A stretch of DNA of 48,430 nt. Source: Asticcacaulis biprosthecium C19. Its GTDB lineage: Bacteria > Pseudomonadota > Alphaproteobacteria > Caulobacterales > Caulobacteraceae. The notes below the pieces were generated by a model that searched no databases, was not told the DNA's origin, and saw nothing but the letters and a program-made list of their open reading frames with translations. Each line of letters begins with the position of its first letter. Position 1 is the stretch's first letter. The position numbers were made by a program, and so were the translations under genes. Positions 9,493 through 37,086 of this stretch are shown here, piece by piece. The stretch lies in contig NZ_GL883078.1 in assembly GCF_000204015.1 (NCBI RefSeq), positions 841,814-890,243 on the forward strand, written 5' to 3'.

Positions 9493-9505
9493 GTTCTGCT
9501 CGGCC

Positions 9506-9918
9506 GGTGGAATCAAAAGACGGAAAGAGCGGAAAGAAACGGAATTCCGGTCGTGGCAACTCGCGCGCGAAGCGCCTTCATTCTATGTGTTTGGGGTTTT
9601 GCGCCAGCCGGCTTGAAACCCTGAATTCCGTGTCTTCAGTTTGCGACGCCGCAGGCGGTGCTTCAGTGTTTTTGGTGTTCCACTTAAATGCCGGCGACAG
9701 GCCGGCTGGCGGAGATATCTCTGAGATGAAGAAGAGGAACACGGACCACACGGAGGCCGCTACGCGGCGACACTGAAAACACGGAATTCAGGGTGTGTAG
9801 GGCTTGGGTGCAAAACGTCATCGTTTTCGGGAATGAAGGCGCTTCGCGCGGGAGGTGCCACGACCGGAACTCCGTTTCTTTCCGCCTCTTTCCGTCTTTT
9901 CCGTCGTTTGATTCTACC
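9506..9918. repeat. Nested long inverted repeat, family A copy 1
   Basis: About 410 nt folding back on itself. The outer arms are roughly 9506-9583 and 9831-9918, sharing words such as GAATCAAA, GACGGAAAGAG and GCGAAGCGCCTTCATTC in inverted form. The inner arms are roughly 9619-9687 and 9731-9792 (CCCTGAATTCCGTGT against ACACGGAATTCAGGG). It contains the small GC dyad GCCGCTACGCGGC followed by a TTCAG-like word, also present in families B and C. It fills the convergent junction between the TIM-barrel gene (+) and the csbD-like gene (-). Short ORFs inside it are by-products of the repeat. Confidence 0.8.
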
Positions 9919-9930
9919 AGCCTTTCATGC

Positions 9931-9966
9931 AAAAAAACGCCCCCGGCCAGGGAGCGGCCGAAGGGC
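9931..9966 (-). terminator. Rho-independent terminator of the csbD-like gene
   Basis: Read on the minus strand: an imperfect GC stem (GCCCTTCGGCC / GGCCGGGGGC) with a 7 nt loop, then GTTTTTTT. It sits about 40 nt after the stop codon of the CsbD protein. Confidence 0.7.
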
Positions 9967-10007
9967 GAGTCATGCGGGAGGTGGATACGCTTGACGACGG
10001 ACTAATC

Positions 10008-10175
10008 TTACTTTTCCGTGCCCGGAACCGACGTCTTGGGCAGCTTGCCGTTGCCGATACGGCCTTCATTGCGAAGTGCGCGACCCTTATCGGCCATCTT
10101 GTCGTTGTGAACGGCTTCGCCCAGCTCTTCTTCGGCGGCGCCGACGGTTTCCTTGATGCTCGACTTGATCGACAT
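10008..10175 (-). CDS. CsbD family stress-response protein
   Basis: 55 aa, soluble and highly charged. The sequence opens MSIKSSIKETVGAAEEELG and continues with the ADKGRALRNEG region that typifies CsbD-like proteins, small general-stress proteins of unknown biochemical function. The start at 10175 is preferred over a longer frame (from 10211) because AGGAGA sits 8 nt before it. The gene is transcribed away from the ElaB-like gene across a 413 nt divergent region, which suggests shared stress control. Confidence 0.8.
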   Translation of the reverse strand: MSIKSSIKETVGAAEEELGEAVHNDKMADKGRALRNEGRIGNGKLPKTSVPGTEK

Positions 10176-10588
10176 GGTCAGTCTCCTGATGAAATGATCA
10201 TCGCCCGCCATCCTGGCTGCGATTGAACCAAGCCTATCAGCCGCCGCATAAGTTTGATGCGCGCAGCCGTCGCCGATGACGTAAAAATCGGATCAAGGGT
10301 GCGCACGTGCCGTCCAGCCTGTGGACAATTCCTTTATATTATAGGCATTCGCCGTATCTTTATGCCGCCTTTATAATATCCGCTGACGTCCACATGGCTT
10401 CCTTAAACGCGATGCACCAATCTAGGATTATCACGTCCACGGTTTCCGGCGCGGCACAGTCCGGGGCTCTTTACCGCCCCCCCTAGCCTAAGACCTCGGA
10501 TTATACGCCGTGCAAGCAATCCGTGGACGTGAGCCCTTTTCCTCCCCCGAAAAATTGACCTCCCTTTTGTTTGTACAGGAGACGAACC
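10176..10588. promoter_or_regulatory. Divergent control region between csbD-like and elaB-like genes
   Basis: No gene is seen in these 413 nt. The octamer ACGTCCAC occurs near 10386 and 10433 and, inverted as GTGGACGT, near 10523; the two inner copies extend to an 11 bp perfect inverted pair (CACGTCCACGG at 10432-10442, CCGTGGACGTG at 10521-10531). An AT-rich dyad (ATATTATA 10336-10343 / TATAATAT 10372-10379) lies upstream. These are candidate operator sites for co-regulating the two stress genes. I could not place a confident sigma-factor promoter. Confidence 0.45.
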
Positions 10589-10882
10589 ATGCTTTCTTCC
10601 GCGACCAAGGCCGCCGCCAATGTTACCAAGACCCTGGCTGAAAACGACATCCGCAACGCTGCCCGCGACACCGAAAACACCGGCCGTGACATCTTGCACA
10701 ATGTCAGCGATTACGCTCAGGATGCCGGTCAGAAGGTTCGCGGCTTCGTCGACAAGACCGTCGATCAGACGCGCAGCACGACCGACAAGCTGACGACCGA
10801 AATCAAGTCCAATCCCATTCGCTCCAGTGCCATTGCGCTGGGGGCCGGTTTCATCCTCGGCGCCCTGCTGGCGCGCCGCTAA
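10589..10882 (+). CDS. ElaB/YqjD-like (DUF883) membrane-anchored protein
   Basis: 97 aa. A long amphipathic, probably coiled N-terminal helix rich in Thr, Asp and Lys is followed by one C-terminal transmembrane segment with the family ending (SAIALGAGFILGALLARR). In E. coli the ElaB/YqjD family are inner-membrane proteins induced in stationary phase that bind ribosomes. ATG 10589 is preceded by AGGAGA. The YqjE-like gene follows after a palindromic spacer, mirroring the E. coli yqjD-yqjE order. Confidence 0.8.
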   Translation: MLSSATKAAANVTKTLAENDIRNAARDTENTGRDILHNVSDYAQDAGQKVRGFVDKTVDQTRSTTDKLTTEIKSNPIRSSAIALGAGFILGALLARR

Positions 10883-10936
10883 GCTTATTCGTTCGCATCG
10901 GGTCATCAAGCCCCCCCCGAGTGATGATCAGATGCC

Positions 10937-10982
10937 GGAGCGGAGCATGGTGTCCTGGCCATGCTCCGCTCCCGAAGTTTTT
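10937..10982 (+). terminator. Strong hairpin terminator after the elaB-like gene
   Basis: A perfect 14 bp stem (GGAGCGGAGCATGG / CCATGCTCCGCTCC) with an 8 nt loop, then CGAAG and five T. Its arms share GGAGCGGAGC with the palindrome that follows at 10987-11097. Confidence 0.75.
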
Positions 10983-10986
10983 GGAA

Positions 10987-11097
10987 GCCGCCAGGCTGGC
11001 CTGCAAAGAGCCGTTTTCTGCGCTTCCGGTGCTCACGTACTTAAGTACGCTCCGCTCCGGTTCTCGAAACCAGCCCTTTTCGGCTCAGCCTGACGGC
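10987..11097. repeat. Imperfect palindromic element, family D
   Basis: About 110 nt with matching ends (GCCGCCAGGCTG against CAGCCTGACGGC) and the perfect centre CGTACTTAAGTACG at 11036-11049, followed by CTCCGCTCCGG. It lies between the ElaB-like and YqjE-like genes and, with the terminator before it, fills almost the whole 247 nt gap. Only one copy is in this window. Confidence 0.6.
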
Positions 11098-11129
11098 CTC
11101 CCTGTAATTAACCTCATTGAGAGAACACG

Positions 11130-11534
11130 ATGTCGGTCATTTTGCGGCTTCTGGATCTGCTTTCGGCCAGCCATAAACTGAAAGATTCCAAGCCGTACGT
11201 CATGCGCGCCCTGGCTGGCATGGCCGTGTTCCTCATGCTCAGCGTCTTCGCCACCTTGATGACAGCCTTGCTGTTCGCCTCCCTGCTTTGGCTGATTTAT
11301 GCCGAAATGCTGGCCGCCGGCGTCGGCAGCGCCTTTGCCGGTACTCTGGTTGCTGGCCTGGGTCTGATCACCATTGGCCTGACGGCCTTCGCCGCCCTGC
11401 GCACCTGGGCTGCCGTCCGCACGGACATCGACCTTGTATTCAATGCCCAGACGCCGGTTGTCAGCAAGGTCGCCGACCGCGTCAGCAACATCGCCGGCGC
11501 CTTTATCTCCGGCCTTCGCAGCCGCAGAGCCTGA
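11130..11534 (+). CDS. YqjE-like membrane protein (DUF1469 / holin superfamily III-like)
   Basis: 134 aa with two transmembrane helices in a hairpin (about residues 28-52 and 60-86) flanked by short cytoplasmic tails. This layout is shared by the YqjE/DUF1469 family, sometimes annotated as a holin-like superfamily. There are no phage genes nearby, so a lysis role is unlikely. Pairing with the ElaB/YqjD-like gene upstream supports an envelope-stress function. The C-terminal tail is basic (ISGLRSRRA). Confidence 0.75.
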   Translation: MSVILRLLDLLSASHKLKDSKPYVMRALAGMAVFLMLSVFATLMTALLFASLLWLIYAEMLAAGVGSAFAGTLVAGLGLITIGLTAFAALRTWAAVRTDIDLVFNAQTPVVSKVADRVSNIAGAFISGLRSRRA

Positions 11535-11726
11535 AATTCCCTATAAAATTTTAGCTCTTACCGCGTTTTTACATTCAACATGGCCCCGCTTATTGTCCGT
11601 TTACACCCCGCCCGATAGGGTGCAGGGTGGCTGGGTGATGCCGCCGTTTCATCCCGGCGGCGGGCCGGACGCTTGAGCCGTCAGGCCGGGCATGCCACAA
11701 TCAAGAAAAAAGCTGGCCGGTTAATT

Positions 11727-13589
11727 ATGCGCTTGCCCTGGGGAATTACCGTCAAAGAGGTCTATCTGGCCTTCTTCGCCGTGATCGCCATTGCCTTGTG
11801 CGGCTTCATCATGGTCATCTACGGTCAATACGAGCGCGTCCAGCAATCGCACAAATACACGATCTACCAGTATGAAAATATCCGTCAGAGCCGGATGATC
11901 CTGAGTGACGTCATCGACATGGAAACCGGCGTGCGCGGCTTCGTCCTGTCGGGCCAAACCCGCTTCCTGCAACCTTATGACCGGGCCAATGCCCGTCTGC
12001 GCGACGAAATCTTCGCCCTGCGCAACCAGACCTATTACGAACCCACCTCCTTTGCCGAAACCAATGCCTGGCTGGAACAGATCGAGGCCATCCAGACCTT
12101 GCTGGCCAAACAGGTTACCCGGGTCAAGTCCCAGGGCCGCAGCGTCATTTCGTCGGCCGAAATGGAGGAGGAGGTCCAGCAGATGGACCGCCTGCGCACG
12201 ACGGTGGAGGCTGCCGTCGACAAGCGGCTGATCATGCTGCGCCAACAGGTCGAACTCGTCGACAAGCAGCGCAACAATTTCCTCTATATCCTCGTTTTTG
12301 GCGCCGTCCTGGGGGTTGGGATCCTGCTGGCCGGCACGGTGCTGATCATCCGGCTGGAAAGCGAGAAGGAAAAGGCCGAGGACGAGAATCGCCGCGCCGA
12401 ATCGCGCTTCCTGGCCGTGATGAACGGGGTCAATGACGGTCTGTATGAGCTCAACTTCGTCAATGACTCCATGTTCATGTCGCACGAGTTCAAGGCCATG
12501 CTGGGCTATGACGACGATGAACTGGAGGAAACGGCCGAGACTGCCATCGCCCTGATTCACCCAGACGACGTCGAAGCCTCGCTGGAGGTCCGCCGCGACT
12601 ACATCACCAAGAAGGTGCCCTTCTACAGCAATGTGTTCCGCATGAAGCACAAGGACGGCACCTGGCGCTGGATCCTGTCGCGCGGCATCGGCACCTGGGA
12701 CAAATTCGGCCAGATCCGCAGCCTGATCGGTACCCATACCGATATCAGCGAACAAAAGGCGCGCGAAGAAGACCTGCGCCAGCTCAATGCCGACATGGAA
12801 GCTTTCACCTACATCACCTCGCACGACATGCGCTCGCCACTGGTCAACCTGAAAGGCTTTTCGCACGAACTGGCTATTGCGGTGCATGAGGTCAACGAAC
12901 TGCTGGAACCGAAGAAGGACCAGATCGGCGCCCCGACGTGGGACAAGCTGGAAACCATCCTCAAGCGCGATGTACCGGAGGCCCTGGGCTTTATCGGTAA
13001 CGCCGTCGACCGCATGGACACCCTGACCACGGCCATCCTGGACCTGTCGCGTATCGGCAAGTACGTCTATCAAGACGAGAAGGTCAATGCGCGTGACGTG
13101 GTCGACACCTGCCTGGGCGCCCAAAGCTACGAAATCAGCAACAAGGGGGTCGAGGTCAAGGTCGGCGCCCTGCCGGAACTGGTCACCGACCGCACGGCCC
13201 TGGAGCAGATCTTCTCCAACCTGATCGACAATGCCGTCAAATATCTGCGCGCCGATGAACCGGGTAAAATCGAGATCACCTGCCACGAAACCGGCCGCGA
13301 TTATATCTTCTCCGTTCGGGACAATGGTCGCGGCATTGCGCCGGAGGACAGCGACCGGGTGTTCAACATCTTCCGCCGCGCCCGCAACACCGGCGATGTG
13401 CGCGGTCTCGGGATCGGCATGGCCTTCGTCAAGGCGTCGCTGCGGCGCATGTCCGGCGCCATCTGGTTCGAATCGGCGCTGAACAGCGGCACGACCTTCT
13501 TTTTCAGCCTGCCCAAGAAGACGCTGGAGGCACTGCGGCCGGCCGTCGAAAACCGCAGGACCGCCTCGACCCGCGGAGGGCGCGGATGA
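11727..13589 (+). CDS. CHASE3-PAS sensor histidine kinase
   Basis: 620 aa inner-membrane kinase. TM1 is at about 7-32, a CHASE3-like extracytoplasmic sensor domain at 35-180 (contains METGVRGFVLSG), TM2 at about 190-215 and a PAS domain at 230-350 ending with the PAC-type phrase LIGTHTDISEQKAREEDL. The phospho-acceptor is His366 in TSHDMRSPL, followed by N-box NLIDNAVKYL and G-boxes DNGRGI and GLGIGMAFVK. The kinase core resembles the phytochrome-like group that pairs with Rcp1-type regulators. ATG 11727 places TM1 at the N-terminus; a TTG at 11673 would add 18 residues and neither has a good Shine-Dalgarno. The stop overlaps the next start by 4 nt (ATGA), so kinase and regulator are translationally coupled. 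Confidence 0.88.
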   Translation: MRLPWGITVKEVYLAFFAVIAIALCGFIMVIYGQYERVQQSHKYTIYQYENIRQSRMILSDVIDMETGVRGFVLSGQTRFLQPYDRANARLRDEIFALRNQTYYEPTSFAETNAWLEQIEAIQTLLAKQVTRVKSQGRSVISSAEMEEEVQQMDRLRTTVEAAVDKRLIMLRQQVELVDKQRNNFLYILVFGAVLGVGILLAGTVLIIRLESEKEKAEDENRRAESRFLAVMNGVNDGLYELNFVNDSMFMSHEFKAMLGYDDDELEETAETAIALIHPDDVEASLEVRRDYITKKVPFYSNVFRMKHKDGTWRWILSRGIGTWDKFGQIRSLIGTHTDISEQKAREEDLRQLNADMEAFTYITSHDMRSPLVNLKGFSHELAIAVHEVNELLEPKKDQIGAPTWDKLETILKRDVPEALGFIGNAVDRMDTLTTAILDLSRIGKYVYQDEKVNARDVVDTCLGAQSYEISNKGVEVKVGALPELVTDRTALEQIFSNLIDNAVKYLRADEPGKIEITCHETGRDYIFSVRDNGRGIAPEDSDRVFNIFRRARNTGDVRGLGIGMAFVKASLRRMSGAIWFESALNSGTTFFFSLPKKTLEALRPAVENRRTASTRGGRG

Positions 13590-14059
13590 TGGAGCCCTTT
13601 GCCCAGCCCTTCACCGTGGTGATGATCGAGGACGATCCCGGCCACGCGGCCCTGATCCGGCGCAACCTCCAGCGCGGCGGCGTCATGAACCCGATCACCC
13701 TGCTCACCACAGGGACCGAGGCGGTAGACTATTTCTTCCCCGAAACGGGCGCGGCCGGATCGCATATTCCCGATGCCCATGAGCCCTGCGTTGTCATGCT
13801 GGACCTGAATCTGCCGGATATCGACGGGTTTGAGATCTTGCGCCGCCTGAAGGCAGATGACCGTACCCGCCTGATCCCGGTCGTGGTGCTGACCACCACC
13901 GATCATCCGAAAGATATTGACCGGTGCTATGCTTTGGGGTGCAATGGGTTTATGACCAAGCCGGTCGGCTATGAGGCCTTTTCTGACGCGATTCGTAAAC
14001 TGGGGCTGATGCTGACCGTCGTGCGCGTACCCCACATTCCCGACAATCGTCATGGCTAA
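13586..14059 (+). CDS. Rcp1-type single-domain response regulator
   Basis: 157 aa receiver-only protein. The acidic pocket is EDD near 12-14, the phospho-acceptor is Asp73 in MLDLNLPDIDG, the conserved Thr lies in VVVLTTTDHP, and Lys in MTKPV. The extra loop after alpha-2 and the wording of the N-terminus are typical of regulators partnered with phytochrome-like kinases. It has no output domain, so it probably relays phosphate or acts by protein contact, plausibly with the hybrid kinase encoded next. It overlaps the upstream kinase by 4 nt and the downstream gene by 8 nt. Confidence 0.9.
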   Translation: MMEPFAQPFTVVMIEDDPGHAALIRRNLQRGGVMNPITLLTTGTEAVDYFFPETGAAGSHIPDAHEPCVVMLDLNLPDIDGFEILRRLKADDRTRLIPVVVLTTTDHPKDIDRCYALGCNGFMTKPVGYEAFSDAIRKLGLMLTVVRVPHIPDNRHG

Positions 14060-15710
14060 TACAACAGACCCCTCTGGAAACCCCTCAGGAAAACCTCCAG
14101 GCGCCGCATCCGGCAACGCGTCCGGACGTGCCACGACGCACCACGCCATGCACCGCATCCTTTATGTCGAGGACGATGCGGCGCTGAGCCGTCTGTTGCA
14201 GCGGCGCATGGAGCGCGCTGGCCTGACGGTCGATACCGTGGAAACCGCCGAGGCGGGCCTTGAGGCGCTGAAGGCCACCACCTACGACCTGGTCCTGGTT
14301 GACTACAACCTGCCGGGCATGAACGGTCTGGAGTTGCTGGATCATCTCAGCCGGATGCCCCAGCCGCCACCCGCCGTCATCCTGACCACCGGCGGCGATG
14401 AGCGCATCGCGCTGGAGGCCCTGGAAAAGGGCGCCGCCGACTATGCGGTCAAGGACGTCAACCAGACCTATCTCGACCTGTTGCCGGCCATCATGACCTC
14501 GGCCTTCACCAAGGAGCGGCTGCTGCGCGAGAACGCCCAGCAGCGCGACGAACTGCAGCACGCCAAGGAACGCGCCGAGGCGGCCAGCCAGGCCAAGAGC
14601 CGCTTCCTGGCGACCATGAGCCACGAAATCCGCACGCCGATGAACGTGGTCACCGGCCTGGCCAGCGTCCTGGCCAAGTCGCCGCTGAACGACGAGCAGA
14701 AGAAGATCGTCGACACGCTGCGCACCAATGCTGACCTGCTGCTGAAGCTGATCAACGATCTGCTCGACATCAGCCGCATCGAGGACGATCACATCGACCT
14801 GGAGCAGTTGCCGTTCGAGGTCTCGGCCATCCTGCGCGATATCCGCGTCATGTTCGAACAGGATATCGCCCGCAAGGGGCTGACACTCCAGTTGGAGGAC
14901 AAGACGCACGGAACGGTGTTGCAGGGCGACCGGACGCGGCTGCAGCAGGTGTTGATGAACCTGGTCAGCAACGCCTTGAAGTTTACCGATTCGGGCGAGA
15001 TTACCCTGCGCGCCGAGGTCACGCCCGACGGCGACGATCACACCATCCTGCACATGAGCGTCAGCGATTCCGGCATCGGCATCGAGCGCGAAAAGCTGCC
15101 GCTGATTTTTGAGAAGTTTACCCAGGCGGATGAAACCATCACCCGGCGCTATGGCGGTTCGGGCCTCGGCCTGTCGATCGCGCGTTCGCTGGTCGAACTG
15201 ATGGGCGGCGATATCCGCGTCGAAAGCCGGCCGGGCGAAGGCTCGGTCTTCCACGTCACGCTGCGTCTGCCGCGCGGCTTTGCCCGTGAAGCGGTGACCG
15301 AACCCGAACTGCCGCGCCGTCGTCCAATGGAGGGCGAGGCCAAGCCGATGGTGCTGATCGTCGAAGACTATGCGCCGAACATCATGGTGCTGTCGCTGAT
15401 GCTGGAGGAGCTCGGCTACGACGCTCTGGCCGCGGCGTCGGGCGTCGAGGCCATCCACATGGTGCGTGAGCGCGACCATCCCTTCCATGCCATCCTGATG
15501 GACGTCCAGATGCACGGCATGGATGGGCTGGAGACCACCGGCTGCATCCGCGAACTGGAAGACGAGGATGCGCGCAATATCATTATCGGGGTGACGGCGC
15601 ACGCCCTGGCGGGCGACCGCGAACGCTGCCTGGCGGCGGGGATGGACGACTATATTTCCAAGCCGGTGTTGCCGGATATCCTGGCGATGAAACTGGGCCA
15701 GATCCGGTAA
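14052..15710 (+). CDS. Hybrid histidine kinase (REC-HisKA-HATPase-REC)
   Basis: 552 aa, no membrane segment, cytoplasmic. Order: a Gly/Ser/Pro-rich leader (1-32), receiver 1 with Asp84 (LVDYNLPGMNG), a coiled linker, HisKA with His191 in MSHEIRTPMN, an ATPase domain with NLVSNALKF, DSGIGI and GGSGLGLSI, then receiver 2 with Asp484 in MDVQMHGMDG. It is the third gene of the kinase/regulator/hybrid operon. The architecture suggests a phosphorelay in which the CHASE3 kinase signals through the single-domain regulator to this soluble hybrid. No histidine phosphotransfer protein or output regulator is encoded in the operon, so the final output lies elsewhere. Confidence 0.9.
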   Translation: MANTTDPSGNPSGKPPGAASGNASGRATTHHAMHRILYVEDDAALSRLLQRRMERAGLTVDTVETAEAGLEALKATTYDLVLVDYNLPGMNGLELLDHLSRMPQPPPAVILTTGGDERIALEALEKGAADYAVKDVNQTYLDLLPAIMTSAFTKERLLRENAQQRDELQHAKERAEAASQAKSRFLATMSHEIRTPMNVVTGLASVLAKSPLNDEQKKIVDTLRTNADLLLKLINDLLDISRIEDDHIDLEQLPFEVSAILRDIRVMFEQDIARKGLTLQLEDKTHGTVLQGDRTRLQQVLMNLVSNALKFTDSGEITLRAEVTPDGDDHTILHMSVSDSGIGIEREKLPLIFEKFTQADETITRRYGGSGLGLSIARSLVELMGGDIRVESRPGEGSVFHVTLRLPRGFAREAVTEPELPRRRPMEGEAKPMVLIVEDYAPNIMVLSLMLEELGYDALAAASGVEAIHMVRERDHPFHAILMDVQMHGMDGLETTGCIRELEDEDARNIIIGVTAHALAGDRERCLAAGMDDYISKPVLPDILAMKLGQIR

Positions 15711-15720
15711 GGCAACAAAC

Positions 15721-16077
15721 GGAATTCCGATAGCCGAATCTCCCGCGCGAAGCGCTTTGACGGCTTGATGGTTCAAGTGATGCACTGGCGTATTTTCACC
15801 TGGAATTCCGTGACTTCCGTGCACGCCGCCACAGGCGGCACTTCAGTGTTTTCCGTGTTCCTCTTAAAAATCTTCGGTTTACCTGAGGCTTTTAAGAGGA
15901 ACACGGAAAACACTGAGGCCGCTGCGCGGCGACACTGAAAACACGGAATTCAGGACGACCGACATCTTTCAGAACAGCTAATATCTGTCAGGAAGTAAGG
16001 CGCTTCGCGCGCAAAGTGCCGCACCCGGAATTCCGCTTCTTTCCGTTTCTGTCCGGGTGTTCCGTCGTTTGAGTCTA
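15721..16077. repeat. Nested long inverted repeat, family A copy 2
   Basis: Same plan as copy 1 at 9.5 kb. The central arms are a perfect 25 bp pair (15845-15869 and 15890-15914, built on GTGTTTTCCGTGTTCCTC). Around them are the GC dyads GCCGCCACAGGCGGC and GGCCGCTGCGCGGC and the outer arms carrying GGAATTCCG, GCGCGAAGCG and TTTCCGT words. It occupies most of the gap between the hybrid kinase and the next plus-strand gene, the only long hairpin in this window not between convergent genes. No coding sequence is supported in 15711-16190. Confidence 0.8.
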
Positions 16078-16208
16078 AGAACCTGTCCGAACCTTACCGG
16101 CTCCTTACGGGGCCGAAGCGGCTTCGGCACTGCGACCTTGCAAGCCTTGGCATAACGTCACCTTCAACCGGGGGCGCTCATGGCCCCGAAATGGAGGCGA
16201 TGAACGTC

Positions 16209-16766: not shown

Positions 16767-16778
16767 GCCGAGGACCCC

Positions 16779-16955
16779 ATGATGAACGCTCATGTCGCCC
16801 CTTTCCCGACCCGCCGGCCGTCACCCCCGATCCACCAATCGACGATCGACGGGGACGTCTATGACGAAGACCTGCCGCCGGAACTGTTCGACGAGGATGA
16901 GGACCGCGAAGATTTGGTCACTTATCTGCATATCGCTGAACACGTCGAAGATTGA
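16779..16955 (+). CDS. Small acidic hypothetical protein (58 aa)
   Basis: Opens MMNAHVAPFPTRRPSPPIHQ and ends with a strongly acidic stretch (DEDLPPELFDEDEDREDL) then TYLHIAEHVED. GAGG lies 5 nt before the ATG. It begins 13 nt after the upstream stop, and the next gene starts 9 nt after its own stop, so it is embedded in a tight operon, the best evidence that it is real. No family recognised. Confidence 0.6.
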   Translation: MMNAHVAPFPTRRPSPPIHQSTIDGDVYDEDLPPELFDEDEDREDLVTYLHIAEHVED

Positions 16956-16963
16956 GGCAAGAA

Positions 16964-17278: not shown

Positions 17279-17292
17279 GAAAGGAACGATCG

Positions 17293-17373: not shown

Positions 17374-17430
17374 TACTGGACCGATCACGGCTTCGATCTT
17401 TCCCCGGGTCGAGGCCCTGATCCATGACGC

Positions 17431-17462
17431 GGAGCAAGGCGTAAACCTTGCTCCCTCTTTTT
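17431..17462 (+). terminator. Rho-independent terminator
   Basis: A perfect 9 bp stem (GGAGCAAGG / CCTTGCTCC), loop CGTAAA, then CTCTTTTTC. It ends the four-gene small-protein operon before the kinase at 17512. Confidence 0.8.
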
Positions 17463-18261: not shown

Positions 18262-18293
18262 TCCTGCTTATTCTACGGAGCGGAAATAGTTTT

Positions 18294-18377
18294 AAAGCGG
18301 ATCCACAGATTAGACAGATTTCACAGATTAAGCCTCTGAATAATCTGTGAAATCTGTCTAATCTGTGGACCCACTTT
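18294..18377. repeat. Long inverted repeat, family B copy 1 (CACAGATTA type)
   Basis: A perfect 29 bp stem (18302-18330 / 18341-18369) with a 10 nt loop, extending by eight more pairs with two mismatches. Each arm is a 9 nt word in tandem (AATCTGTGA, AATCTGTCT, AATCTGTGG). The GC dyad GCCGCTACGCGGC plus GGTTCAGG follows near 18388. It lies between the kinase (+) and DUF1328 (-) genes, a convergent junction. Copies 2 and 3 are at 31283 and 36964. Confidence 0.9.
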
Positions 18378-18418
18378 AACGCAATTGCCGCTACGCGGCC
18401 GGTTCAGGTCCGACACAT

Positions 18419-18445
18419 AAAAAAAACCGGCCGCGAGGGCCGGTT
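18419..18445 (-). terminator. Rho-independent terminator of the DUF1328 gene
   Basis: A perfect 8 bp stem AACCGGCC / GGCCGGTT with a 5 nt loop. On the minus strand it is followed by a run of eight T; on the plus strand by CTTTATTT, so it may act in both directions. Confidence 0.8.
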
Positions 18446-18467
18446 CTTTATTTGGATTTTACTGCCG

Positions 18468-22778: not shown

Positions 22779-22876
22779 TTCTTATACCTCCCCGCGCCTC
22801 TTCGCGTGGGGAGGGGGACCGCTCGAACGAAACGTAGCCAAAGGCGGAGTGAGTGAGGTGCGGTGGTGGGGCGACT
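22779..22876. repeat. Left inverted flank of the DUF559 pseudogene (R4)
   Basis: CTTATACCTCCCC, palindrome with CCTCCCCGCG / CGTGGGGAGG arms, GGGGGACCGC, then a GGTGGTGGGGCGAC end. The same landmarks occur in reverse complement at 23265-23360, so the two form a roughly 95 bp imperfect inverted repeat around the nuclease gene. Confidence 0.75.
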
Positions 22877-23229
22877 TACTTTTGGCTCAACCGCGCCTGG
22901 ACAGTCAGCCAAATACCGTCCGCTGCTCCATCTGGATCGCGGAATACCTCTCCGGCCGGAATTCGATACACTTCGATACCCTATTCATTCAGCCAGCGGT
23001 CTCGTCGTTCGTCTCGGTCGGAATCGTGAAGGGCTCCGTCAACTTCCACGTATAGCTTTACCTTGTGGCAGTAGAAATCGAGAATATACGGCCCCTTCGG
23101 ATGTTGGCGACGAAAAGCGATTCCGTCGCCATCCCTGTGCTTCAGTCTATCCCATAGAAGGAATTCCGGCGTCGTAAGCTCACGCCGCATTTCCTTGGCG
23201 AGGGCCAGTTTTCGGATGTCCCTTTTCAT
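22876..23229 (-). pseudogene. DUF559 (PD-(D/E)XK) endonuclease-domain protein, in-frame amber
   Basis: A 118-codon frame, exactly the length of the intact homologue at 48007-48360, interrupted by one TAG at codon 83 (plus-strand positions 22981-22983). Before it: RRELTTPEFLLWDRLK, FRRQHPKGPYILDFYC and VEVDGALHDSD, with the nuclease-core residues Asp51, Glu62 and Asp64 present. After it the homology continues without a shift: GIEVYRIPAGEVFRDPDGAA aligns with GLDVYRVPAADVFRDADGVA of the other copy. The other copy has Gln at the stop position, so a single CAG to TAG change explains it. The catalytic core lies before the stop, so an 82 aa product might keep some activity, but pseudogenisation is the simpler reading. 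Confidence 0.85.
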
Positions 23230-23264
23230 GGTTTCAAACTATCAATCTACGGCATTTTCGTAAA

Positions 23265-23360
23265 GTCGCCCCCCCACCACATCTCACGCGCTGGCGGCCT
23301 ACGGCCTGGCTCGCTCGTGCGGTCCCCCTCCCCACGCAAAGAGGCGTGGGGAGGTATAAG
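23265..23360. repeat. Right inverted flank of the DUF559 pseudogene (R5)
   Basis: Reverse-complement counterpart of 22779-22876: GTCGCCCCCCCACCAC at the inner end, GCGGTCCCCCTCCCC, then a palindrome with CCTCCCCACGC / GCGTGGGGAGG arms and GGTATAAG at the outer end. Confidence 0.75.
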
Positions 23361-23361
23361 A

Positions 23362-29103: not shown

Positions 29104-29110
29104 GTTTTCA

Positions 29111-29342
29111 ACCACGAACCACACCAACAGACACGAACTTCAGGCACATCTTGACGCCGCGCAGCGGCTGAAAACTATTGAAGTTTTGGAACCGCGAATG
29201 GACGCAAATAAACGCGAATAGATCGGCTTCACCATTCGCGTTTATTCGCGTCCATTCGCGGTTCCTGAAATACGTAAAAAGGGCGCTACGCGGCGGGTTC
29301 AAGCACATCCTGAAGTTCGTGTCGGTTCGTGTCGTTCGTGGT
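29111..29342. repeat. Doubly nested long inverted repeat, family C
   Basis: Outer arms 29111-29144 / 29309-29342 (34 nt, few mismatches; words TTCGTGT, TTCGTGTC, TTCGTGG in tandem). Inner arms 29188-29219 / 29234-29265 (32 nt, one mismatch; ATTCGCG repeated three times every 10 nt). GC dyads GCCGCGCAGCGGC and GCGCTACGCGGC with TTCA-type words lie between the two hairpins, exactly as in families A and B. It fills the junction of the convergent peptidase (+) and LytTR (-) genes. Confidence 0.9.
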
Positions 29343-29354
29343 AAAAAATCTTAC

Positions 29355-30200: not shown

Positions 30201-30253
30201 AGAACGGCGCTATCCCGTAGGCAAGAGACCTCAACTCACCTCAGGGGATACCC

Positions 30254-31246: not shown

Positions 31247-31282
31247 CGTCCTGAACGCACCGCTTAGCGGCATCAGATATCA

Positions 31283-31393
31283 AAGTGGGTCCACAGATTA
31301 CACAGATTAGAAGGATTTAAGACGCGCTTCGCGCAAGACTATCCCGGAAACACCTCTTAATCCCTTTAATCTGTGTAATCTGTGGACCCACTT
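31283..31393. repeat. Long inverted repeat, family B copy 2
   Basis: A perfect 27 bp stem (31283-31309 / 31367-31393; arms contain CCACAGATTACACAGATTA), continuing inward with a weaker match (GAAGGATTTAAGA / TCTTAATCCCTTT). The loop carries GCGCTTCGCGC. Outside it are AGCGGCAT on the left and ATGCCGCTGAGCGGCGG on the right. Lies between the hydrolase (+) and hypothetical (-) gene ends. Confidence 0.9.
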
Positions 31394-31437
31394 AAGGTAA
31401 AATGCCGCTGAGCGGCGGCGTCAGGACAGACTGAAAA

Positions 31438-32622
31438 TTAAGCGGCCGTCCGGTCGTCGTTATGCAGGCACGCCGCCAGGCTGGCTTCGAAATCGACCAA
31501 GATATCGGCGAATTCGATGCTTTCCAGCGGCCGGGAATTGTTCTCGATCACCTTGGCCATCCGGAAGCGCCAGAAGGATACCATGTGGTTCAGCACGCCG
31601 ATTTTCTCGCCCAGGCGCAGGAACAGGTGCGAACCGTGTTGCAGAAAATGGCGGAACGGCTCCGGGTTGCGATCGCGCGCCAGGGCCGTATAGACGTCGT
31701 CGTACGACTCAAGCGTCTGGGCGATTTCCTTCAGGGTCTTGACGATCGCCCGGGCCAGGCGCGGACGCACCTTGCGCAGATAGCCCCGCAGGATGTCGTC
31801 GTGCGTCACATTGGGCTTGTAGTGGGCCAGGCCCGTCAGCACTTCACGCACCCCGTTCTGAAGTTCCCTGTGGCACCACAGGTAATAGAGGAAACCCCGC
31901 CAGCACATGACGCCTTCGTAAAACGCCTCGGGCGTCATATCCAAGGCACCACGCAATGGCAGAAGTTCCTGGTCCAGCTTGTCCGACAGAATCTTGTTGC
32001 CCAGCTTGTCGGCCTTCTTGCCGTCCTCAGCGTCGAAGTCGTCACCCAGAGCCGCCCGCACCAGATCCTCAACCTTCTGCGCCGTGTAGGCTGCCATTTC
32101 GGTCAGGTCGGCGTGCGAAATCTGGAAATAGATCCCGGCCGGCCGGATGCCGATCCGGCCCAGATGCTCACGGACCAAGAACGGATCCAACGACGGCAAG
32201 CTGTCCAGGATATGCAGGATGCGGACGTCACGGTTCTTGGCCAGACTGTCGATGCCCAGGTAGTTGGACATCAGCCCGTCAAACCCGATCTGGCGATAAT
32301 AGATCGACCGGCCACCCAGGCGCAGGTCGAACGGGTCATAGGGCAAGATGATCTTGGTCACCGTGGCGCGGCCGTTGTTGAACAACTGGCGTTCGTCGGC
32401 ACGCAGGGTATGTTTCAGGATGATGGCGCGGTTGAGCTGCGAATTCTCGAACAGCGGCCGCTCCGCCCAGGCGTTCTCTTCGCGGTGATGCACGAAGACC
32501 TTGGTCAGATTCATGACCCGGCTGGACGCTGCCGTCCGGTTCAGATGGGCCAGGTTGCGGATTTCCCGGGCCGCGGTGAACTGGCTTTCACCGGACGTGC
32601 CGGATACCTGCAACAAGGCCAT
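31438..32622 (-). CDS. Uncharacterised protein, tandem paralogue B
   Basis: 394 aa from Met at 32622 (frame open to 32649). Soluble, no signal or transmembrane helix, no domain I recognise. It is clearly homologous over its whole length to the protein encoded just upstream (32725-33888): shared phrases include LGGRSI, LDPFLVREHLGRIG, RGFLYYLWCHRE, RPRLARAIV and FADILVDFEASL. About 75 nt separate the two genes, and both follow a response-regulator gene on the same strand, so the trio is probably an operon. A role in the output or modulation of that regulator is inferred from context only. Confidence 0.7.
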   Translation of the reverse strand: MALLQVSGTSGESQFTAAREIRNLAHLNRTAASSRVMNLTKVFVHHREENAWAERPLFENSQLNRAIILKHTLRADERQLFNNGRATVTKIILPYDPFDLRLGGRSIYYRQIGFDGLMSNYLGIDSLAKNRDVRILHILDSLPSLDPFLVREHLGRIGIRPAGIYFQISHADLTEMAAYTAQKVEDLVRAALGDDFDAEDGKKADKLGNKILSDKLDQELLPLRGALDMTPEAFYEGVMCWRGFLYYLWCHRELQNGVREVLTGLAHYKPNVTHDDILRGYLRKVRPRLARAIVKTLKEIAQTLESYDDVYTALARDRNPEPFRHFLQHGSHLFLRLGEKIGVLNHMVSFWRFRMAKVIENNSRPLESIEFADILVDFEASLAACLHNDDRTAA

Positions 32623-32724
32623 GCGGCGGTTACTCCAAACAAGCCTCATACCAAAACGTGCCAGAAAGCCTCCCGCGCACGTTTTGGCCAGGTAACGTTC
32701 TTTGGCAAGAGGCGCCTTAAACTA

Positions 32725-33888
32725 TCAGTCGCTGAGGGGGCGTGACACGCAGGTCAGCGAATCCTCGAAATCCATCAGGATGTCGGCATATTCCCCTGGC
32801 GTCAGACGCTGGTTCATCATCTGCTGGCCCATGCGGTAGCCCCAGAACGAACCGATGTGCGACAGAATGCCGATGTTCTCGCCCAGTTCGTAGAACAACC
32901 CCGGCCCATCCAACAGGAAGCGGCGGAACGGTCCCGGATTCTCCCCCTCGACCAGGGCGTGATAGGCCTGATCGTAGACATTGAGCGTACGGCCGACATT
33001 GGCGATCGCGTTGACGATGCTGCGCGCCAGACGTGGCCGGCACTCCTTGAGATATTCGCGCAGGTTTTCGTCGGACGCGCCGATCGGTTGATAGGTGGCC
33101 AGGCCTTCCAGGACACGGCGCATCTCTTCCTGAAGCTCCAGGTGACGCCATTTGAAGTACAGGAAGCCGCGCCACGAGAAGATGCCGTCGGAGAATTCCT
33201 CGTCCGACATGCGCAGGGTCTTTTTGAGCGGCCACAGCTCCTTGTCGAGCTCATTCGCCAGGATCTTGCCGGCCAGCTTGAGCGAAGCGCCGCCGACCGT
33301 GGCGTCACCGAAGGCCGTCGCCACCAGGCGCTCGATTTCCTCGTTGGCGAAGCCGATCATGCGCTGAACGTCAAAGGGCGAGATCTTCAGATAGCAGGCT
33401 GCGGGCTTGAAGCCGTTGCGCGACAGGTGCTCGCGCACCAGGAAGGGATCCAGCGACGGTGAGGAATCGAGCAGGCGCAGGACCTGGACGTCGGAATTGC
33501 CACTGATGTCGTCGGTGTTGAAATAGTTGCGGCAGAAGCTGTCGAAACCCATCTGGTTGACGAAGATCGAGCGGCCGCCCAACTTCAGGTCCAGCGGGTC
33601 GAACGGCAGGATGACCTTGGTCGCCGTGCGGCGCGAACGGGCGAACTGATCGCGTTCATTGGCGCGCAGCGTGTGCTTGACCAGGATCGCCTTGTTCAGC
33701 TGCGAATCGCGGAAGAACGGCCGGAGCTGGTATTCCTTTTCCTTGGACGAGTTCAGATAGATCTGGGACAGGTTCAGCACGCGCGACGTCGAGGCGGTTT
33801 CGCCCAGATTGGCCAGATTGCGGACATCGCGGTTGGTCGCATTGCCTATGGTGCCATTCTTGGCATCAGCCGGAGCAAAGGCGTTCAT
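32725..33888 (-). CDS. Uncharacterised protein, tandem paralogue A
   Basis: 387 aa, soluble, no recognised domain. Homologous to the downstream protein (LGGRSI, LDPFLVREHLSRNG, WRGFLYFKWRHLELQ, RPRLARSIV, YADILMDFEDSL). It begins with ATGA overlapping the stop of the response-regulator gene (33885-33888), so the two are translationally coupled, strong evidence for joint function. The conserved Phe-Leu-Val-Arg-Glu-His and Arg-Leu-Ala-Arg motifs, kept between paralogues, are the best candidate functional sites. Confidence 0.72.
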   Translation of the reverse strand: MNAFAPADAKNGTIGNATNRDVRNLANLGETASTSRVLNLSQIYLNSSKEKEYQLRPFFRDSQLNKAILVKHTLRANERDQFARSRRTATKVILPFDPLDLKLGGRSIFVNQMGFDSFCRNYFNTDDISGNSDVQVLRLLDSSPSLDPFLVREHLSRNGFKPAACYLKISPFDVQRMIGFANEEIERLVATAFGDATVGGASLKLAGKILANELDKELWPLKKTLRMSDEEFSDGIFSWRGFLYFKWRHLELQEEMRRVLEGLATYQPIGASDENLREYLKECRPRLARSIVNAIANVGRTLNVYDQAYHALVEGENPGPFRRFLLDGPGLFYELGENIGILSHIGSFWGYRMGQQMMNQRLTPGEYADILMDFEDSLTCVSRPLSD

Positions 33889-34778
33889 GACACCTTCCTT
33901 TTGCGGCGCTGGTCAACCAGACGGTTCAGTTGCGACACGATGTTCACAGCCTCTTCATGCTCACTGTAGGGGACATCGTTCAGCCGGATCAGGGCGTCAA
34001 GATGCACATCCAAAACTTCGGCTTCTGCCTTGTTCCCAAAGTGTCGCACATACTCGTTTAAAGAGTGTGTAGCTTGTTCCAGCAGTTTTAACCGCATACC
34101 GTGGGCCTCGGTTTGGACCTCAAGCAAGCGGCCGGTCAGGTTGTCCAGGACCCTGGGGTCGATCCGTTCGTGACGCAGCAAGGCCTGGCGCAGGACGTCC
34201 GCCTCACCCGACAGCCGTTCACGAAGGGTACCATCGTCGGCGCGGCGCAAAATGCCCGGAAACAGGCCGGCGCGGCGTCTGCGGCGGTCGGGCCCCGTGA
34301 AGCCGGCGGAGACAATAAAACGTTGTTTGCGCGTCAGGGAATGGGTCACGGCCTTCAGCAGCGAGGTGGTCGAAAACGGCTTGACGACAAAGTCGTTGAT
34401 GCCGGCCTTTTGCGCCGTCGTCACATCGTGCTGCCGCTGACGCCCGGTCAGCATGACGATCGGGACCTGTGGATTGGGAAATTCGGGCTTTTCGCTGTGG
34501 GCCGCCTGGCGGATCTCGCGCACCAGATCAATCCCCGACTTGCCCGGCAACTCCCAGTCCATCAGGATCAGGTCGGGATGGTGCGCGTGGATCTGCTCGA
34601 CCGCCTCCTCCGCCGATCGGGCATAGTGCAGTTTGACGAAGCCGGTGGCGCGCAGCAGTTCCTGGACCAGACGGCGCGAGGCGTCGTTATCTTCGACGAT
34701 CAGGATGCCAACCGACTCGCAATCGATTTTCCGCAGCCATTTCTGCGTCTGTGAATGCGCCGTCGCCATTCGAACCAT
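33885..34778 (-). CDS. Response regulator with novel helical C-terminal region
   Basis: 297 aa. Receiver domain at about 22-150: acidic pocket EDND, phospho-acceptor Asp74 in LMDWELPGKSG, Thr in VMLTGRQ, Lys in VVKPF. After a basic linker (GPDRRRRRAGLF) comes a helical stretch of about 110 residues ending in a very basic tail (RRKRKVS) with no DNA-binding domain that I recognise. It heads the operon with the two uncharacterised paralogues and is coupled to the first by a 4 nt overlap. GGGGGG lies 9 nt before the ATG. The kinase is not encoded nearby. It is divergent from the exported protein gene at 34926. Confidence 0.82.
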   Translation of the reverse strand: MVRMATAHSQTQKWLRKIDCESVGILIVEDNDASRRLVQELLRATGFVKLHYARSAEEAVEQIHAHHPDLILMDWELPGKSGIDLVREIRQAAHSEKPEFPNPQVPIVMLTGRQRQHDVTTAQKAGINDFVVKPFSTTSLLKAVTHSLTRKQRFIVSAGFTGPDRRRRRAGLFPGILRRADDGTLRERLSGEADVLRQALLRHERIDPRVLDNLTGRLLEVQTEAHGMRLKLLEQATHSLNEYVRHFGNKAEAEVLDVHLDALIRLNDVPYSEHEEAVNIVSQLNRLVDQRRKRKVS

Positions 34779-34925
34779 CTGTTGTCGCCCCCCAATGAAT
34801 ACTGCAGCGCAAACTAGAGGGAATACCTAAATTATTGGTAATTAAGCCATTGATTTCATGGTTAATTTTATTTGAATTTCGACCGTGAACCGAACTTTAA
34901 CGGTGACGCCGCATACTGGAAAGCT

Positions 34926-35330
34926 ATGGAACGCCGTCATCTTCTTTCCGCCCTGTGCGCCGCCGCTGCGACCACGTTTGCCGCCGTGCCGGCCCTTGCC
35001 AGTGCGCCCAAGAAAAAGGGCGGCGGACTGGGCTATACTCAGTTCCCGATGATAAGCGTCTTTACCAAGGGGGCCGGCCACCGCCACGGCTCGATGAGCG
35101 TCGAAATCGGGCTGTACTGCGACGATGCCAAGCTGACCGAGCAGGTCAAGCTGTACCGCCCCCGGCTGATGGATGCCTATGTCACCAAGTTGCAGGGCTA
35201 TGCGGCCAATCTGACGGCAGCGTCGCTGATCGACACCGACTATGTCGCCAATCAATTGCAGGCGACCACCGACAAGATCCTGGGCCGTCCCGGCGCCAGG
35301 GTGCTGCTGGGCTCCATCCTGCTCAACTAG
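34926..35330 (+). CDS. Exported FliL-like hypothetical protein
   Basis: 134 aa. The N-terminus MERRHLLSALCAAAATTF with an ALA cleavage site is a signal peptide. The mature part (YTQFPMISVFTKG, SVEIGLYCDDAKLTEQVKLY, RPRLMDAYVTKL) has the layout of the FliL C-terminal domain, where a beta-rich region is followed by helices that count membrane insertion or ring assembly. No flagellar genes are adjacent, so a FliL-like domain in a non-flagellar exported protein is the cautious call. ATG 34926 is chosen by the signal; the frame is open from 34872. Confidence 0.6.
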   Translation: MERRHLLSALCAAAATTFAAVPALASAPKKKGGGLGYTQFPMISVFTKGAGHRHGSMSVEIGLYCDDAKLTEQVKLYRPRLMDAYVTKLQGYAANLTAASLIDTDYVANQLQATTDKILGRPGARVLLGSILLN

Positions 35331-35393
35331 GTTTTGCGTTGCACACAAGCCGGAAAGCCGCCATAAAGACAAGCGACACCGGAGCCTGTGCAG

Positions 35394-35732
35394 ATGACGT
35401 CATCGCCTTTCGAGAACGGCCTGAAGCTGATGGAGGCGCAGCAGCAACTGGCTGCGCGCAGCCTGATCAACCTGATCGAGATGATCAGCACCTCCTCGCA
35501 CCGTTACGCTTCCGAGACCACCTCCTTTACGAAGGAAGCCCTGGACCTGATGCGCGCCGCCGCCCAGACGCGTGATCCGGCGGCCCTGACGGAACTGCAA
35601 AAGACCTGGGCCCAAACCTGCGTGAAATACAGCCAGAACCAGAGCCGCGCCGCCATGACCTTTGTCGAACAGTGCGGCCTGCAGGCCCTGAACACCGCCG
35701 CGCGTTCGGCCAAGACCGACAAAAAGGACTGA
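35394..35732 (+). CDS. Phasin family protein (PHB granule-associated)
   Basis: 112 aa, all-helical and rich in Ala, Gln and Ser: the amphipathic pattern NGLKLMEAQQQLAARSLINL and QSRAAMTFVEQCGLQAL is typical of phasins that coat polyhydroxybutyrate granules. ATG 35394 is preferred over GTG 35388; both lie near GGAG. It ends 4 nt before the 3-hydroxybutyrate dehydrogenase gene, which strongly supports the PHB assignment and an operon. Confidence 0.8.
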   Translation: MTSSPFENGLKLMEAQQQLAARSLINLIEMISTSSHRYASETTSFTKEALDLMRAAAQTRDPAALTELQKTWAQTCVKYSQNQSRAAMTFVEQCGLQALNTAARSAKTDKKD

Positions 35733-35736
35733 GATC

Positions 35737-36525
35737 ATGACGGGTTTGGCGGGCAAGACGGCACTGGTCACGGGTTCCACCAGCGGCATAGGCCTGGCGA
35801 TTGCGAGTGGTCTGGCCGCCCAGGGCGTCAAAATCATGCTGAACGGTCTGGGTGATCCCGGCGAGATTGAGGCCCTGCGCGCCGAGATGGCCAGGACCTA
35901 CGGCATCGAGGTGCTATTCGACGGCGCCAACCTGCTGCGCGCGGATGAGATTGGCGGCCTGATCGGCGCCATCGACGCGAAACTGGGCGGGGTGGACATC
36001 CTGGTCAACAATGCCGGCATCCAGCACGTCTCTCCCATCGAAAGCTTCCCACCGGAAAAGTGGGATGCCATCATCGGGCTGAACCTGACCTCCAGCTTTC
36101 ATACGGTGCGCCTGACCTTCGAAAAGATGAAGACGCGCCGCTGGGGCCGGATCGTCAACATGGCCTCGGCGCATGCCCTGGTTGCCTCGCCGTTCAAGTC
36201 GGCCTATGTCGCGGCGAAACACGGCCTGCTGGGCTTTACCAAGACGATCGCGCTGGAAGGCGCTGAATTCGGCATCACCTGCAACGCCATCTGTCCGGGC
36301 TACGTCAAGACGCCGCTGGTCGAGAAACAGATCCCCGACACCGCGAAAGCGCGCGGCATGACCGAGGAACAGGTGATTCGCGACGTACTTTTGGCCGCCC
36401 AACCGACCAAGGAATTCGTCCATGTCGAAGACGTGGCGGCTTTGGCGGTTTTCCTGTGTTCGGACGCCGGCAAGGCGATCAATGGTGCGCCGATGTCGAT
36501 CGACGGCGGCTGGGTCGCGGCCTAA
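35737..36525 (+). CDS. bdhA: 3-hydroxybutyrate dehydrogenase (SDR family)
   Basis: 262 aa cytoplasmic short-chain dehydrogenase oxidising D-3-hydroxybutyrate to acetoacetate with NAD, the last step of PHB degradation. The cofactor motif is TGSTSGIG at 13-20, NNAG is near 92, and the catalytic SxnYxxxK is represented by SAHALVASPFKSAYVAAKHG. The phrases PGYVKTPLVEKQI and PTKEFVHVEDVAALAVFLCS are those of the hydroxybutyrate dehydrogenase group. Operonic with the phasin. A weak hairpin with a T-rich tail follows near 36538-36567. Confidence 0.92.
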   Translation: MTGLAGKTALVTGSTSGIGLAIASGLAAQGVKIMLNGLGDPGEIEALRAEMARTYGIEVLFDGANLLRADEIGGLIGAIDAKLGGVDILVNNAGIQHVSPIESFPPEKWDAIIGLNLTSSFHTVRLTFEKMKTRRWGRIVNMASAHALVASPFKSAYVAAKHGLLGFTKTIALEGAEFGITCNAICPGYVKTPLVEKQIPDTAKARGMTEEQVIRDVLLAAQPTKEFVHVEDVAALAVFLCSDAGKAINGAPMSIDGGWVAA

Positions 36526-36639
36526 CAGCTGCGCGGCCTGGTATTTACAGGTTTTTTATTTTTTTCTCCGCCTATCAGCAACGCTTCTCTATTTGTGCTA
36601 TGTCCATAGTCCCAGACCTCTGGTGAGAAGGACCTCCAC

Positions 36640-36855
36640 ATGATCAAATTGACCTATTCCAAAGTGCTGCCGCTTATCGCCGCAGCCGCCTGTCTGACTG
36701 TCGCTGCCTGCGAAAAGAAGACCGAAACGACCACGACGACGGAAACCACGACAACGGAAATGGCGCCTCCGGCCGATACCGGTACGGCGATGTCCGATAT
36801 GGCTATGTCGGACACCACGACGGTTACCAGCACCTCGACCTCAGTCGCACACTAA
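36640..36855 (+). CDS. Small threonine-rich lipoprotein
   Basis: 71 aa. A signal peptide with lipobox TVAAC (Cys at residue 24) predicts lipid attachment. The mature chain is low-complexity: TTTTTETTTTE, then MSDMAMSD and TSTSTS tracts, so probably disordered. AGAAGGA lies upstream of the ATG. The gene has its own strong terminator at 36899. Function unknown; charged EKK directly after the Cys may affect sorting to the outer membrane. Confidence 0.75.
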   Translation: MIKLTYSKVLPLIAAAACLTVAACEKKTETTTTTETTTTEMAPPADTGTAMSDMAMSDTTTVTSTSTSVAH

Positions 36856-36898
36856 GCGACCGCTGGATTGTTGGCGGGGGTCCACCCCCGAAAGGAAA

Positions 36899-36931
36899 AG
36901 CCCCGGAACCGCAAGGTCCGGGGCTTTTTTT
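36899..36931 (+). terminator. Rho-independent terminator of the lipoprotein gene
   Basis: Stem AGCCCCGGA / TCCGGGGCT plus inner CC/GG pairs around a GCAA loop, followed directly by seven T. Confidence 0.9.
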
Positions 36932-36963
36932 GCTGAGCCGACCACGCAGCGGCATTTTATATC

Positions 36964-37047
36964 AAGGGGATCCACAGATTACACAGATTAGAAGAGATTA
37001 AGCTGCTGAAAAATCTGCGAAAATCTGTGTAATCTGTGGATCCCTTT
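36964..37047. repeat. Long inverted repeat, family B copy 3
   Basis: A 27 bp stem with two mismatches (36964-36990 / 37021-37047; arms contain GGATCCACAGATTACACAGAT). Left outer word AGCGGCATTTTATATCAAG, right outer dyad CCCGCTATGCGGCGGGTTCAG, both matching copy 2. It lies between the lipoprotein (+) and ABC exporter (-) gene ends even though a normal terminator is already present. Confidence 0.9.
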
Positions 37048-37086
37048 AACGTAGGATCCCGCTATGCGGCGGGTTCAGAACCGGCC

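Follow-up and report, generated by a model that had tools for sequence, protein, structure and literature searches.

The window analysed here is a stretch of 48,430 nucleotides (nt) from Asticcacaulis biprosthecium C19 (G000:C3:841814-890243, part of contig C3 in a 5.41-Mb genome of six contigs that is 98% complete). It contains six long inverted repeats, denoted A1, A2, B1, C, B2, and B3, all of which were found where the original prediction had placed them. Genes were called with a hexamer-based caller of our own that overlooks atypical ones, among them the DUF559 genes and the DsbA-like gene near 39–40 kb described below; on these calls, five of the hairpins lie at convergent junctions, A2 at a tandem junction being the sole exception. 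As argued below, the hairpins are probably miniature, mostly gene-less forms, comparable to miniature inverted-repeat transposable elements (MITEs), of a palindromic mobile element with a GxxExxY nuclease gene.

Hairpin A1 (9506–9908) is a concentric palindrome, with outer arms of the A2 type (9529–9583/9831–9885, 95% complementary) and inner arms at 9618–9640/9772–9794, and its neighbour named by Pfam is an AP_endonuc_2/xylose-isomerase-like protein. A2 (15711–16056) is likewise a concentric palindrome of the A family, comprising arms at 15711–15758/15997–16044 and a core at 15843–15878/15881–15916 (89% complementary). In hairpin C (29105–29348), flanked by genes for a prolyl oligopeptidase and a LytTR regulator, the outer arms (29105–29160/29293–29348) belong to family D and the inner ones to family C; the core (29188–29219/29234–29265, 97% complementary) shares with them a common dyad at 29226.5. 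The remaining three hairpins belong to family B. B1 (18276–18395, arms 18276–18330/18341–18395, 87%) neighbours genes for a histidine kinase and a DUF1328 protein; B2 (31250–31438, hairpin 31283–31317/31359–31393, 94%) has additional outer arms (CCGCTNAGCGGC/GTCCTGA) and lies next to a gene for an alpha/beta hydrolase; B3 (36933–37078, arms 36933–36989/37022–37078, 77%) lies next to that of an ABC transporter. Outer arms made of the module CTGAACCCGCCGCGTAGCGGC surround several B hairpins, at 31250–31280 and 31395–31425 of the window as well as in loci L121, L122, and L135. Ordinary terminators had been reported beside B1 and B3: a terminator-like site scored on both strands in the scan adjoins B1 (18421–18449), and one is visible by eye beside B3 (about 36900–36932), where the scan returned a weak site only. 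A scan of the window against Rfam gave 0 matches at gathering thresholds.

The arms had been described as falling into three unrelated families. Their words do differ, although they are not wholly unrelated, since all follow one plan, with two to four tandem copies of a 9–10-mer (B TCCACAGATTACACAGATTTCACAGATT; C AACCGCGAATGGACGCGAATGAACGCGAAT; D CCACGAACCACACGAACAGACACGAAC; E TCCACAGATAAGCCAGATAAGCCAGAT; A GGAACACGGAAAACACTGAAA). The B word has 141 matches in the genome (68+73, at most 2 mismatches) and the C word 49 (26+23, at most 3 mismatches), compared with 0 for the reversed pattern of either, so that these inverted repeats are far beyond chance. In 12 nested clusters that combine two arm words (two of the original 14 were excluded because both words lay on identical bases), the dyads agree within 2.5 nt in 10 and within 6 nt in all 12, with outer spans of 147–355 nt. 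Four of the 12 involve A-type arms only and may represent one composite element; in the other eight, which comprise five combinations (CACGGAT/C, D/C, CACGGAT/B, D/B, and A2/B), six dyads coincide within 1 nt. Shared dyads are not expected from random insertion into a loop, and they suggest either that insertion favours the palindrome centre or that repair acting between the arms makes the structure symmetrical again. Two nested D/B hairpins are found side by side in L117:2411-2896.

Genes of the GxxExxY family were expected from the outset to have flanking repeats of this kind, and the expectation was then tested. The genome contains six PF13366 genes (GxxExxY, PD-(D/E)XK nuclease), and inverted arms enclose five of them: D arms in L061, E arms in L063 and L066, B arms in L064, and A arms in L065. 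A full-length element consists of inverted arms of tandem 9–10-mers (e.g., CCACAGATT ACACAGATT TCACAGATT) placed tightly around a single GxxExxY gene of ~125 codons, the start codon of which abuts the arm in L061 and L065. Over 1.06 Mb, the arms of the B element (L064) find 43 and 44 hairpin clusters, and 0 and 1 places outside them; the corresponding cluster counts are 6 and 7 for D, 5 and 5 for A, and 4 and 4 for E, those of B and E including the gene elements within the searched set. The gene-less copies thus share their terminal repeats with the gene-bearing element, which is the relationship that characterizes MITEs. Among 169 called genes of 270–620 nt taken without selection (848 kb of sample and window together), the flanking inverted repeats of four score >12.5, and the top two belong to GxxExxY genes. 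Locus L138 (2004–3234) contains a B element with arms about 1.2 kb apart, the interior of which is given as N.

The protein itself scores well against the GxxExxY family models PF13366 and TIGR04256 (E = 1.5e-39 and 6.3e-42), and its closest named match, with 83% identity, is from Asticcacaulis. The catalytic PD-(D/E)XK residues are conserved, with E30, D70, E80, and K82 invariant across 47 aligned sequences. The AlphaFold2 model (predicted local distance difference test score, pLDDT, 94.6) matches only four chains in the PDB at E<=0.001 in Foldseek, all of SSO0001, a Cas4-type protein, followed by RecE, LHK-Exo, and lambda exonuclease. The model supports a nuclease fold for GxxExxY, leaving the mode of cutting unspecified. 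A sequence search of the PDB gave seven weak matches (E 0.16–0.46) to unrelated proteins, and these were rejected.

Comparison with two relatives of the same genus (G007 and G009, about 85–89% identical across this region) shows that corresponding sites differ in the presence of a hairpin. Nine sites (A1, A2, B1, B2, and C, as well as C3 positions 168534, 171990, 174649, and 177261) were compared with each relative, and "no hairpin" was called where the interval between the flanks contained no inverted repeat of at least 12 pairs. In 8 of the resulting 18 comparisons the hairpin is absent (A1, B1, and B2 in both relatives; 171990 and 177261 in G007), and in three a different family occupies the same place: the C site of G007 has an A-family hairpin with 58-nt perfect arms, 171990 in G009 has a D hairpin with 31-nt perfect arms, and, as the weakest case, the A2 site of G009 has a CACGGAT-type hairpin with 15-nt perfect arms. 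The same family is retained in four (A2 in G007; C, 174649, and 177261 in G009), and other DNA is found in three (168534 in both; 174649 in G007). A G/C-rich palindrome seen by eye at C3:174649 in G007 was rejected, as the scan detected there no inverted repeat of at least 12 pairs. Among the gene-bearing elements, that of L064 is absent from G009, with continuous flanks, while its flanks in G007 lie far apart; that of L066 is absent from both relatives, G009 being anchored by one flank only; that of L065 is common to G007, at the same place and with a protein 94% identical, and G009 has other DNA there with a CACGGAT arm nearby. No target-site duplication was seen by eye in the alignments of filled and empty sites, in which a very short one could be hidden by the 10–15% divergence. 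The hairpins are not fixed parts of the junctions, and they vary in presence and absence at one place as mobile elements do. They are probably not built-in transcription barriers.

The distribution of hairpins relative to genes was surveyed in a contiguous sample of 800 kb, in the window, and at 40 further loci with arm-word matches. These loci were picked by the B and C words, so that other families are under-sampled outside C3, and the survey covers a part of the B matches, drawn from those listed. It gave 74 clusters (families A, A2, B, C, D, and E), which lie at 34 convergent, 38 tandem, and two divergent junctions, the background in the sample and window being 110, 426, and 110, respectively. 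By junction count, 12.6 would be expected at convergent junctions (binomial p = 7e-9) and 12.6 at divergent ones (p = 1e-4). The convergent excess persists when the window is left out (29/68, p = 6e-7) or when only the sample and window are counted (16 convergent, 13 tandem, and two divergent of 31; p = 1e-5 for the convergent and 0.08 for the divergent class). At tandem junctions, the cluster is closer to the 3' end of the upstream gene in 29 of 38 cases. A model that counts 3' ends, in which a junction of at least 60 nt contributes two if convergent and one if tandem, predicts 27.8 convergent clusters (34 observed, p = 0.085), and the rule is therefore one of gene 3' ends and not of convergent junctions only. 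Of the original prediction, the placement at gene ends is borne out beyond the window; the specificity for convergent junctions is not (38/74 tandem). A function selected at the junctions would predict conservation, and with eight of 18 comparisons empty and three family-switched, that interpretation is only partly supported.

Inverted arms around GxxExxY genes are also found far outside this genus. A search of species genomes with one GxxExxY protein gave 60 loci, 57 of them usable (three lacked 60 nt on both sides), and in 47 of these the flanking inverted arms exceed the maximum of 211 shifted controls. In a sample of 385 genomes from the class of the host, PF13366 is present in 26; 28 loci were fetched, seven truncated ones were excluded, and 13 of the 21 usable loci exceed the maximum of 105 controls. 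A protein tree of 61 rows (six from this genome; five of 66 loci with short proteins were excluded) includes 52 rows with a named phylum, from 14 phyla. It is a quick tree, in which many forks have weak support (33 of 58 open). Arms were assigned to the classes CAGAT, CGAAT, CGAAG, CGAA[AC], and CGGA, leaving out 14 of the 66 loci that had no clear arm word. On this tree the arm class changes 10 times over 50 rows, compared with a minimum of 21 in 300 shuffles, and eight times over the 41 rows used for shuffles confined to phyla (minimum 10 in those shuffles). The phylum label on the same 41 rows changes 19 times (shuffle minimum 24), which is also below the shuffles, so that host history is visible too; with eight changes of arm class against 19 of phylum, the arms keep to the protein more closely than to the host. 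Across the 385 genomes, arms and gene are positively though not completely correlated: a strict pattern of three units is present in 7/26 PF13366-positive and 18/359 negative genomes (p = 6e-4), and two or more matches in 4/26 and 6/359 (p = 0.003). A single match is close to noise level, as the reversed pattern is matched once in each of 11 genomes, and these rates are lower bounds because the strict pattern misses 10-nt periods and other words. In L190 and L201, which come from other phyla, the reading frame of GxxExxY seems to extend into the arms, with arm words as protein termini (NPQITQISQ in L201).

Two palindromes of another kind, each with a DUF559 gene, had been placed at two of the eight convergent junctions claimed for the window, and both are present. 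The first (22780–23361) has G/C-rich arms around a gene on the minus strand (22903–23208) with one in-frame TAG, and the second (47987–48430), at the window edge, has G/C-rich arms around an intact open reading frame (48007–48360, minus strand). A 19-nt convergent junction at 40719/40739 was also recovered; the count of eight was checked in part. Inverted C/G-rich arms enclose four of the five DUF559 (PF04480) genes of this genome, and in the genome and class sample together 24 of 30 usable genes (34 loci, four truncated) exceed the maximum of 150 controls. These palindromes resemble the GxxExxY elements in having a small nuclease-like gene between palindromic arms, and differ from them in the protein family and in the arms, which are mostly C/G-rich hairpins of the CCCTCTCCC..GGGAGAGGG type. 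Two small nuclease-like families therefore live inside palindromes. A further palindrome at 39074–39254, of the CCCTCTCCCC type, resembles the DUF559 arms and contains no DUF559 match. Next to it (39262–40716) are overlapping long antisense open reading frames, one DsbA-like (minus strand) and one GDSL lipase-like (plus strand); the matched domain residues do not overlap, and the two are probably divergent genes with shorter starts.

Considered together, these observations lead us to a probability of about two in three that the hairpins are miniature, mostly gene-less forms of a mobile palindromic element carrying the GxxExxY nuclease. In the mechanism that we propose, the nuclease would recognize the arm word of its own element, as may be inferred from the change of arms with protein clade. 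It would cut a palindrome, possibly extruded as a cruciform, at its dyad or close by, and repair of the break would copy the element in; full elements would be served in cis and gene-less ones in trans. Insertion by break repair in this way would produce no target-site duplication and would set each new palindrome exactly within an existing one. The preference for 3' ends would need no host function, because insertion there is tolerated and promoters are spared; transcription insulation may be a side effect of the hairpins.

Several observations weigh against this reading. Movement by the nuclease, and its activity as an enzyme cutting at palindrome centres, are proposed from sequence, and its fold neighbours are mostly exonuclease-like and not sequence-specific endonucleases. 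Significant arms are missing in 10 of the 57 loci across phyla and in 8 of 21 in the class sample, and a harsher control, in which flanks from different loci are paired, leaves 19 of 57 above the 99% level (2/171 controls), a low yield that results from distant or unrelated elements sharing arm words. In the genome studied here, L062 has an A2-type hairpin alongside and no enclosing arms, and neither family C nor CACGGAT has a GxxExxY gene. Some genomes bear arms but lack PF13366, those with two or more matches being G133 (16 matches), G345 (10), G225 (4), and three with 2–3; in 18 stretches of G133 and G345 no arm pair 200–1600 nt apart, as expected of a gene-bearing form, was detected. The sharing of the L065 element with G007 implies that some copies are old. 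As A-type words alone make up four of the 12 nestings and D/B appears twice, the number of independent nestings may be as low as six. Matches are present in only 8 of 72,556 plasmid records, and a phage search gave no match. The flanks of the elements are palindromic (score at least 10) in 14/57 cases, compared with 22/228 controls; with so weak an excess, insertion at the dyads of native terminators is not claimed.

The hairpin-rich genomes lacking PF13366 possibly reflect gene loss or another enzyme. In G133 and G345 (L276–L293), many CACGGAG/CACAGAG hairpins are seen, and two stretches of G187 also contained no arm pair 200–1600 nt apart. These genomes, with their several three-unit hairpins, together with families C and CACGGAT, are what speaks for a rather unlikely alternative in which some other enzyme moves the hairpins, and GxxExxY is a passenger that settles there or a domesticated gene that targets them. 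Against it, GxxExxY genes fill the space between the arms closely (L061 and L065), and the arms co-vary with the protein across phyla. Co-variation of arms with a PD-(D/E)XK nuclease would also fit an enzyme with protected sites, that is, a host-side defence or addiction system in which gene-less hairpins serve as decoys or antidote sites; we regard this as very improbable, as the gene-less copies are polymorphic for presence and PADLOC gave no match for the one GxxExxY protein scanned.

The strong excess at 3' ends, the near absence from divergent junctions, and the long stems would all suit bidirectional terminators or insulators, selected at convergent ends to stop read-through or to protect RNA 3' ends, and a terminator-like site (31404–31419, minus strand) lies within the outer module of B2. 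This explanation is nevertheless unlikely to be the main one and is set aside as such because the sites are polymorphic and the families switch (11 of 18 comparisons empty or family-switched). In addition, the stems of B1, B2, B3, and C have, by eye, no T-run directly after them, an ordinary terminator-like site stands beside B1, 38 of 74 clusters are tandem, and the same arms enclose nuclease genes. The terminator scan did not list the long arms, but loops >8 nt are outside its range; its counts were 16 (9.5 +/- 3.2 in shuffles) and 11 (10.0 +/- 3.5). Spread by a RAYT (Y1 HUH) transposase, as for repetitive extragenic palindromes (REPs) and REPINs, would explain palindromic, extragenic, multi-copy sequences with a REP-like placement, since REPs are reported to favour tandem and convergent junctions (PMC3733652). 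That origin is most improbable here: the genome has no Y1_Tnp gene at E<=1e-3 (5/14 control genomes match), the arms are about 20–58 nt long and built of 9–10-mers, and the gene between them is a different one.

If the reading of the hairpins as miniature forms of GxxExxY elements is correct, it suggests what a widespread uncharacterized gene family does and where intergenic hairpins come from. Mobile palindromes that encode only a nuclease, and whose arm words co-evolve with that protein, would open a new route of DNA mobility and would offer a natural series of sequence-specific PD-(D/E)XK enzymes with targets printed beside the gene. More tentatively, and at somewhat less than even odds, GxxExxY elements might form a class of bacterial mobile DNA, with arms in 13 named phyla, the sole gene of which encodes a PD-(D/E)XK nuclease that reads its own repeat word and inserts palindromes at existing dyads, leading to concentric growth at gene ends; DUF559 palindromes would then be a second, independent branch of this strategy. 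Hairpins at gene ends are easily taken for terminators, and position alone is a poor ground for calling them regulatory.

Searches of the open-access literature, subscription papers and preprints aside, listed no description of palindromic elements with GxxExxY or DUF559 genes, nor any mention of the arm words; papers naming GxxExxY do not deal with repeats, and one that combines DUF559 with a hairpin is concerned with methyltransferases. Among known systems, PD-(D/E)XK homing endonucleases such as I-Ssp6803I are likewise small selfish nucleases that would spread by break repair, whereas the elements described here have many unlinked sites and palindromic arms, with no intron or intein. Bacterial MITEs derived from insertion sequences are similar in that gene-less inverted-repeat copies accompany a gene-bearing element; as points of difference, no target-site duplication was seen at the sites read, and the present elements carry a nuclease, not a known transposase, between the arms. 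Parallels are also offered by REP/REPIN-RAYT systems (REPtrons) and TIR/TIRYT systems (TIRtrons), in which short extragenic palindromes, many gene-less and few gene-bearing, lie at tandem or convergent junctions (PMC3733652, PMC3116915), and RAYT-like genes flanked by terminal inverted repeats (TIRs) are described alongside gene-less TIR families (PMC3116915). The REP criterion is a palindrome of 20–40 nt with a GTAG or CGTC tag, and the arms here are longer and consist of 9–10-mers, the tags having been checked by eye only. While the gene of REPtrons and TIRtrons encodes an HUH tyrosine transposase, the elements described here encode a PD-(D/E)XK protein in a genome with no Y1_Tnp gene, have arms made of tandem 9–10-mers, and nest, family within family, on one dyad.

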